From Lachnospiraceae bacterium (lineage in GTDB: Bacteria > Bacillota_A > Clostridia > Lachnospirales > Lachnospiraceae): a stretch of DNA of 7,110 nt. The notes below the pieces were generated by a model, which was given only the letters and a program-made list of their open reading frames with translations, made no database searches and was not told where the DNA came from. Below are positions 1,636 through 3,435 of the stretch, one piece after another. The position numbers were made by a program, and so were the translations under genes. Where the stretch lies: the NCBI GenBank assembly GCA_017553665.1, contig JAFZKM010000006.1, positions 1-7,110 on the forward strand, in the 5' to 3' direction. Each line of letters starts with the position of its first letter. The stretch's first letter is position 1.

Positions 1636-1670
1636 AAGGACGACCGCTCTAGCCGAGAGGTCGTCTTTTT
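1636..1670 (+). terminator. Intrinsic (Rho-independent) terminator without an obvious gene
   Basis: GACGACC (1639-1645) pairs perfectly with GGTCGTC (1659-1665). Inside, after a G-A mismatch, CTC (1647-1649) pairs with GAG (1655-1657) around a five-base loop. Five Ts (1666-1670) follow, and three bases before the stem can extend pairing into them. The T run is on the + strand only, so termination should act on + strand transcripts. No + strand gene ends here: the nearest upstream gene on that strand ends at 314. It may end a short untranslated RNA begun somewhere in 1500-1600, or stop antisense transcription coming from the back of the zinc-ribbon gene. Confidence 0.65.
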
Positions 1671-1686
1671 GTGCGATAAGCGAATG

Positions 1687-1795
1687 CCATCGGTCCCGGC
1701 GAAGCCGGTGCTACAGGCTGTATGCGGCTGTCAAGACTGAAAGTCTTGAGCAGCTGCATATGACTGGAGCAGAAGCGTAAAACGCGGACCGATGG
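1687..1795 (+). ncRNA. Candidate structured RNA with a four-way junction
   Basis: Nested inverted repeats fold without strain. P1: CCATCGGTCC (1687-1696) with GGACCGATGG (1786-1795), ten perfect pairs. P2: CGGC-GAA-GCCG (1697-1707). P3: 1709-1716 with 1764-1771 (seven pairs, one A-G mismatch), an internal loop, then 1721-1731 with 1750-1760 and CAAGACT (1732-1738) with AGTCTTG (1742-1748), capped by a GAA loop. P4: GCGT-AAA-ACGC (1775-1785). Single-stranded joints are 0, 1, 3 and 0 bases, a compact cloverleaf. Two pairs in P3 (1726-1755 and 1731-1750) are G-U when read on the + strand but would be C-A mismatches on the minus strand, favouring a + strand RNA. A TGC-GATAAG extended -10-like box (1672-1680) would start transcripts near 1687, but there is no -35. 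It is not a tRNA. I do not recognise the family. Confidence 0.5.
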
Positions 1796-1849
1796 CTGAG
1801 CGAACGGTCACCGAGTGAACTTGTTCACGAGGGGACCACTCGCTCAGCC
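1794..1849. repeat. 56-base near-perfect hairpin overlapping the Uma2 stop codon
   Basis: GGCTGAGCGA (1794-1803) pairs perfectly with TCGCTCAGCC (1840-1849). A symmetric AC/AC loop follows, then GGTC (1806-1809) with GACC (1834-1837), an A-G mismatch, CC with GG, tandem G-A/A-G pairs (1813-1814 with 1829-1830), and GTGAA (1815-1819) with TTCAC (1824-1828) under a CTTG loop, a known stable tetraloop type in RNA. The tandem G-A pairs exist only in the + strand reading. On the minus strand the first arm contains the last Gly codon and TGA (1846-1844) of the HTH-Uma2 gene, so it could also protect or end that mRNA, although no T run follows. It shares GG 1794-1795 with P1 of the preceding structure, so the two helices compete by two pairs. 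Confidence 0.7.
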
Positions 1850-2802: not shown

Positions 2803-2835
2803 TATTCTATCATACAACAAGACATGGAGAATGAT

Positions 2836-3435
2836 ATGATCCTTTTTACCGGTTTTGAGCCGTTCGACAACGCAAAAACGAATCCGTCCTTCGAGGCAGT
2901 GAAAATGCTGCCTGACGAGATCATGGGAGTACATATCGAAAAAATGGAGCTGCCCGTGGTATTCGGCGACGCGGCCGCCGCAATAATAAAAAGGATCGGG
3001 CACGAAATGCCCGAGGCGATCATAATGACAGGCGTTGCTTCCGGCAGGGAGAAGATCACACCCGAAGTGACGGCCATTAACCTGGCCGACGCGCGAATCC
3101 CTGACAATGCAGGGAATTTACCGAAATGGGAACGCATAATTACTGACGGTCCCGATGGGCTTTTCTCAACGCTTCCGGTAAGGCAGACAGTGAGCGCGAT
3201 GGAAGCCGCAGGCCTGGCGGCAGGGCTGTCGTATTCGGCAGGCACTTATGTCTGCAACGATACATTTTTCAGGGTTTGCAGCTATGTCCGCTCGCATTGT
3301 CCCGACGTTCCGTGCGGATTCATACATGTTCCGAACCCTAAGGGCACGGACAAAGGCACCGGCATGACCGTAGAGGATTTCGCGCGGGGACTGAAGATAT
3401 GCGCGGAAACTATCATTGACAGGAGGAGCGAATAG
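2836..3435 (+). CDS. pcp: Pyrrolidone-carboxylate peptidase (pyroglutamyl peptidase I)
   Basis: A cytoplasmic cysteine peptidase of family C15 that removes N-terminal pyroglutamate from peptides. The 199-residue product has the family's normal length of about 200. Start ATG 2836 is preferred over the in-frame ATG 2824: GGAG (2826-2829) lies six bases before it, the earlier ATG has no ribosome site, and MILFTGFEPFD is the usual N-terminus. The catalytic triad is recognisable as Glu77 (ITPEVTAIN), Cys140 (GTYVCND) and His164 (GFIHVPNP). Other family blocks are present: TGVASGR (65-71), DARIPDNAG (85-93), GLFSTLP (108-114). The usual Arg after the catalytic Glu (PER) is Val here. It overlaps the next gene by one base (TAGTG), so the two are surely co-transcribed and probably translationally coupled. 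Confidence 0.95.
   Translation: MILFTGFEPFDNAKTNPSFEAVKMLPDEIMGVHIEKMELPVVFGDAAAAIIKRIGHEMPEAIIMTGVASGREKITPEVTAINLADARIPDNAGNLPKWERIITDGPDGLFSTLPVRQTVSAMEAAGLAAGLSYSAGTYVCNDTFFRVCSYVRSHCPDVPCGFIHVPNPKGTDKGTGMTVEDFARGLKICAETIIDRRSE

Follow-up and report, generated by a model that had tools for sequence, protein, structure and literature searches.

The window analysed here, a stretch of 7,110 nucleotides from a Lachnospiraceae bacterium, carries at 1687..1795 a four-way-junction fold. It belongs to a repeat unit, whose first hairpin is enlarged here into one of the several forms that it can take. The repeat family to which the unit belongs has a conserved fold, is absent from Rfam 15 and is tied to intrinsic terminators at a fixed place and orientation. 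The explanation that we favour, with moderate confidence, is that it is a non-autonomous mobile repeat with a plus strand RNA of conserved fold, inserted beside terminators by an enzyme acting in trans.

The fold in the window and its covariation

The computed fold of 1687-1795 has an energy of -62.5 kcal/mol (z -8.06) and none of 200 dinucleotide shuffles equalled it, which agrees with the claim, made earlier from the letters alone, that so many nested stems would rarely arise by chance. It also reproduces the junction drawn in that sequence-only reading, with four helices on the plus strand. P1 pairs 1686-1696 with 1786-1796 (10 pairs, or 11 when G1686-C1796 is included), P2 lies at 1697-1707 and has a GAA loop, P3 lies at 1709-1771 and has 26 pairs, two of them G-U, where about 25 with two G-U had been drawn, and P4 lies at 1775-1785. 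The junction has four unpaired joint bases in total, namely 1708 and 1772-1774. Since the minus strand of 1687-1795 folds nearly as well (-56.2 kcal/mol, z -7.77), the strand is not given by fold energy alone.

Compensatory changes among homologues, whose absence the sequence-only reading had listed first among the things that would speak against it, are many. In a structure-blind alignment of 10 four-way copies (A3), which omits L117, L157, L164 and L178 with other types of hairpin 1 and L089 that is cut at a contig end, 91.7% of the cells pair, both sides have changed in 39 of 60 pairs, and the covariation score is 0.456 compared with 0.192 for shuffled alignments, while slid structures did not exceed 0.105. 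A second alignment (A5), which leans towards the structure and consists of 50 matches to our covariance model R1 (E 1e-6, 50 selected sources), gave 93.4% pairing, both sides changed in 55 of 58 pairs, and a score of 0.632 against 0.185; two of its matches come from L311, both of them copies with a simple hairpin, and none comes from L307 although this locus had been listed earlier.

A search of Rfam with the whole window at E 1 returned a single match, to a microRNA model below its cut-off and located elsewhere in the window, and a search with 1640-1860 at E 10 returned 11 microRNA and lncRNA models, all far under their cut-offs. We regard these matches to eukaryotic models as chance. No fitting family was thus found for the window, in which the sequence-only reading had recognised no tRNA or riboswitch pattern. 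The repeat family is also not described in the literature searched, a body from which most subscription papers were absent.

Parts and forms of the repeat unit

The repeat unit of the window spans 1670-1836 on the plus strand and starts right after the T tract of an intrinsic terminator (1636..1670, stem 1636-1668, T tract 1666-1670), which is host sequence outside the repeat and whose stem is paired in the fold of the window. The junction is where it had been placed, at 1687..1795, but the repeated unit is wider, from 1670 to about 1834-1836. It begins with a conserved 5' strand, TGTGCGATAAGCGAAT (1670..1685), followed by hairpin 1 in its four-way-junction form (1686..1796, from folding and covariation), the linker TGAGCGAACG (1797..1806) and hairpin 2 (1807..1836, from folding and a covarying helix). 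When copies are compared the order is TGTGCGATAARCGAAT, hairpin 1, TGAGYGAACG and hairpin 2, and complete copies elsewhere are closed by a hairpin 3 ending in CTACTCGAT, which is absent from the window.

Hairpin 1 is plain in many copies. It is a four-way junction in the window, in L081, L082, L085, L086, L087, L088, L199, L200 and L206 and in further R1 matches, and in L117 and L157 it is enlarged in another way; hairpin 1 would then be a part that tolerates enlargement, the four-way junction being one such form. The fold itself is real, but the four-way junction is not the RNA as such; it is a variable domain of a longer unit and is often replaced by a plain hairpin.

The linker is proposed to be the 3' strand of a short helix with 1674-1684 of the 5' strand, and this pairing covaries across copies: in 43 simple copies the pair formed by R of GATAARCG and Y of GAGYGAAC is G-C in 16, A-U in 11, G-U in 15 and A-C in 1. 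The loops beside this helix resemble what we take to be a UAA/GAN motif and tandem G.A pairs. In the computed fold of 1600-1860 the linker strand pairs with the 3' flank and not in the proposed helix, and this counts against our favoured explanation. The window has a long palindrome at 1791-1852 (80% of 30 pairs) between the linker and hairpin 2 on one side and the 3' flank on the other. This palindrome is a competitor of the proposed linker helix, and it overlaps the stop codon of a Uma2-type gene that lies downstream of the copy on the opposite strand.

Dispersal of the family

When 1669-1860 was searched against seven genomes (E 1), 22 matches were found in G001 and 9 in G003, among them five longer matches with identities of 77-80% (four of 147-148 bases, one of 95) besides numerous short ones at either end of the query; G005 and G007 gave one chance-like match each and the three other genomes none. 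Of 61 relatives of G001, 18 carry the 5' motif, whereas reversed controls gave none, and all 18 carriers are among the 24 members of the genus (0 of 37 genomes outside it). A broader motif was found in 19 of the 24 genus genomes, and R1 in at least 21, a lower bound as at most 120 candidates per genome were scored; the three genus members without an R1 match among these candidates are G008, G019 and G028.

Among 299 members of the bacterial family, a plain DNA search at E 1e-8 matched G001 only. R1 with stricter filters found at least six, again a lower bound with 9 candidates per genome scored; these are G001 and G023 in the genus, G092 and G241, which are convincing, outside it, and G114 and G174, also outside it, where the matches are weak and lie beside antisense tRNA genes. 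The two weak loci, L336 (G114) and L337 (G174), are excluded from the member count and are perhaps distant relatives of the repeat family. In both the match lies near position 1501 of the locus and has a hairpin-2-like CATCGAG..CGAGATG end. Carriage by phages or plasmids is not supported, for nothing in phage and plasmid records matched the element, and one exact pattern had no match in viral contigs. What had been described as an unrecognised RNA in a non-coding gap is structured and without an Rfam match, but it is a dispersed repeat tied to terminators and not a single RNA.

Terminators and neighbouring genes

By a mechanical rule, a hairpin with a T tract lies directly upstream of 86 of 120 unique copies, compared with 49 of 4460 random positions (1.1%) and 176 of 2385 T-rich positions (7.4%); in all our copy sets (77, 43, 120 and 77) the fetched loci were chosen by motif or model and not at random, and the copies are related, so that the counts are not independent. 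An earlier copy set gave 59 of 77. The rule is passed by 61 of 83 plain copies and by 25 of 37 enlarged ones, and a terminator-type site in the opposite sense on the 3' side was found for 1 of 120. Several of the 34 copies that fail the rule are, by eye, behind terminators with long loops, and some adjoin an apparent stop codon. In L081, L082, L085 and L087 the four-way core sits within a larger paired frame with the ends ACTTCCGG and CCGGAAGT and is not behind a terminator. One copy, in L276, is located after an SRP RNA gene.

The terminator of the window was followed in relatives of the pyroglutamyl peptidase encoded at 2824-3435, which led to two loci, L001 and L003, from metagenome-assembled Clostridia/Lachnospiraceae. 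The non-coding segment 1482-1668, with the terminator at its end, is 90% identical in L001 and 83% in L003, and the four-way junction is absent from both; since the terminator is conserved where the repeat is lacking, what lies immediately upstream of the element in the window is a conserved terminator. Behind the terminator of L001 is CGCGAGATGACC, which resembles the 3' arm of hairpin 2 of many copies, and L001 may, judging from this likeness, keep a decayed copy of the element; behind that of L003 nothing recognisable was seen. The segment 1482-1668, which is present in 2 of the 24 genus genomes, is more alike in L001 and L003 than the corresponding neighbouring genes. It has no Rfam match and is possibly a small RNA.

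Five elements lie directly behind a T-box match, namely in L287 (G003), where the match is above the Rfam cut-off, and in L186 (G024), L199 (G026), L305 (G020) and L334 (G241, outside the genus), where it is slightly under. In the last four the next gene is trpE, as assigned from its translated start and from clustering of neighbours and not by a family search. The trpE leader with a T-box is followed by elements of differing hairpin-1 form in four species of two genera, and this recurrence is an argument for a device kept by the host. In that view a structured RNA behind terminators would act on transcripts that read through them, for example by shielding the mRNA of the gene that follows or by processing it. 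Crude gene calls put 62 of 72 upstream genes on the strand of the element. They place 56 of 72 downstream genes on this strand too, some of these starting within 30 bases of the element, which also fits such a device. However, the downstream gene faces the other way in the remaining 16, as it does in the window itself, the neighbouring genes are of many kinds, and near-identical copies occur at unrelated places. We give a host device a small chance.

The strand

Read on the plus strand, the stems contain more G-U than A-C pairs: there are 42 G-U and 18 A-C in the stems of simple copies, 16 and 4 in the well-paired columns of A3 (26 and 10 in all its columns), and 110 and 41 in the model-fitted A5, these being counts over related copies that are not independent, with consensus structures derived by folding the plus strand. 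The excess of G-U favours a plus strand RNA, as far as comparison of copies can tell, and extends to the family what had been suggested from the two G-U pairs of P3.

It also speaks against a palindromic repeat that works at the level of DNA in the manner of REP or BIME, in which the hairpins would act as single-stranded or cruciform DNA and RNA would be irrelevant. Both strands do fold well, as such a repeat would have it, and GCGAAGC-type loops are stable in DNA too. The family resembles REP/REPIN in being made of dispersed, palindromic, extragenic repeats without a gene of their own, and differs in its bigger multi-helix fold, its tight link to terminators and the lack of a RAYT-type partner beside the copies. 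None of the five fetched Y1 transposase genes has a copy beside it; a 12-base near match in L196 was all that these loci contained. Y1_Tnp is present in 5 of 11 genomes and missing in 6, including G023, G001 and G013. A RAYT as the driver is not supported, and we think that a repeat acting as DNA is unlikely.

Probable mobility and its driver

The copies in G023 look like products of a recent spread. Those of 123-124 bases form two subfamilies, each nearly uniform in sequence but set in differing flanks, and those of 208-212 bases have common ends. A query of 1301 bases from G023 with one copy in it matched 12 other places of the same genome at 98-100% over about 118-131 bases, mostly confined to positions 574-701 of the query and stopping at the ends of the element, and matched many places in G016, G017 and G029 at 94-100%. 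It is because these 13 copies of G023 are 98-100% alike at different places that the spread looks recent, and dispersed, near-identical copies without a gene are a trait of MITE-like elements. In addition, a second 5' motif, often decayed, is found within 24 bases after 27 of 77 complete copies compared with 152 of 1540 control windows, as if, to go by the motifs, new copies re-enter beside the terminator. Inspection of the G023 copies by eye showed neither target duplications nor terminal inverted repeats. The search for a clean empty site gave none (one attempt was crowded by duplicate loci and another covered one locus, with an unconserved neighbour), so that movement is something we infer.

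The elements appear too small to bring an enzyme with them. The 5' motif and the linker are at most 177 bases apart in the motif-scanned loci, among copies with a linker match, which is too close for a transposase gene; L171 has one far pair of 5' motif and linker that looks like chance. No transposase was recognised by eye in the 15 largest clusters of neighbouring proteins, with one sequence taken from each and the window outside this set. A resident reverse transcriptase as the driver is not supported: RVT_1 is present in 14 of the 24 genus genomes and missing in 10, namely G023, G001, G016, G017, G013 and five more. In the non-autonomous mobile repeat that we favour, an enzyme supplied in trans would recognise the terminator hairpin and T tract, whether in the DNA or at the 3' end of a transcript. 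The RNA fold would probably be bound by this enzyme or by a partner protein. Insertion at the terminator would leave no visible target duplication, and a terminator once used could receive later copies, with the older one decaying downstream of them. A bolder version, which we hold to be a long shot, is a selfish RNA whose own fold guides it to terminator DNA, or to transcripts at the 3' ends that termination leaves, and which is then copied into the chromosome at that place without a resident reverse transcriptase or Y1 transposase; if true, it would be a new targeting mode for a very small mobile element.

Comparison with known systems

The nearest in kind are BOX, RUP and SPRITE of the pneumococcus, interspersed repeats of small size that are MITE-like and predicted to fold as RNA; BOX is in addition modular (PMC3049150). 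Terminal inverted repeats and target duplications are features of BOX and RUP, and SPRITE is itself terminator-like (PMC3049150), whereas our repeat lies behind a terminator. All three also belong to another host.

Clostridiales-1 RNA (RF01699) is, like the repeat, multibranched, about 165 bases long and found in the same genomes, where it matches in 17 of 17 at E 0.001, above the cut-off in 12 of 17, with several copies close together. A table in PMC2864571 rates it as a probable RNA that is probably not cis-regulatory. Membership of the repeat in this family is rejected, as the best element loci reach 33.5 bits (L157) and 35.4 bits (L336, the doubtful member) against a cut-off of 48, and 1640-1860 of the window has no match even at E 10. 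The copies of Clostridiales-1 RNA that were inspected start at or near stop codons, whereas the repeat starts after a T tract. In its loci L353-L363 the RNA at 1501 is often, by eye, at or beside an apparent upstream stop codon; several have a groEL-like GGM end upstream, and a T7 run follows two.

Group IIC introns enter DNA behind a stem-loop, either that of a rho-independent terminator or that of an attC site (PMC7923331). The repeat is like them in being placed directly behind a terminator-type stem-loop (the 86 of 120 copies given above, against 1.1% at random), and unlike them in that no intron model matches and its units, of about 123-212 bases, have no gene. The start of the element, T/GTGCG, also resembles the group II 5' consensus, as would suit a relative of group IIC introns that is degenerate or lacks an ORF. 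Such a relative is very improbable, since Rfam scans of the window and of 16 element loci gave no group II match and several element-rich genomes lack a reverse transcriptase. The repeat lands like a group IIC intron and is built somewhat like BOX but is a member of neither. Finally, that this is a single small RNA gene, as the sequence-only reading had entitled it, is hardly credible, because, strong as the fold within its non-coding gap is, units of the type at 1670-1836 recur at many loci, which contradicts a lone gene as the sole explanation, and a promoter scan of 1400-2900, with 2 promoter-like sites where 2.8 were expected, showed none that stood out as belonging to the element.

Significance

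The family adds a fold absent from Rfam 15 that has very strong covariation and is tied to intrinsic terminators. If the repeat is mobile, it is a short and tractable system for the recognition of terminators, those of T-boxes included, and it could show how the arrival of an element affects read-through and the control of operons in Lachnospiraceae.
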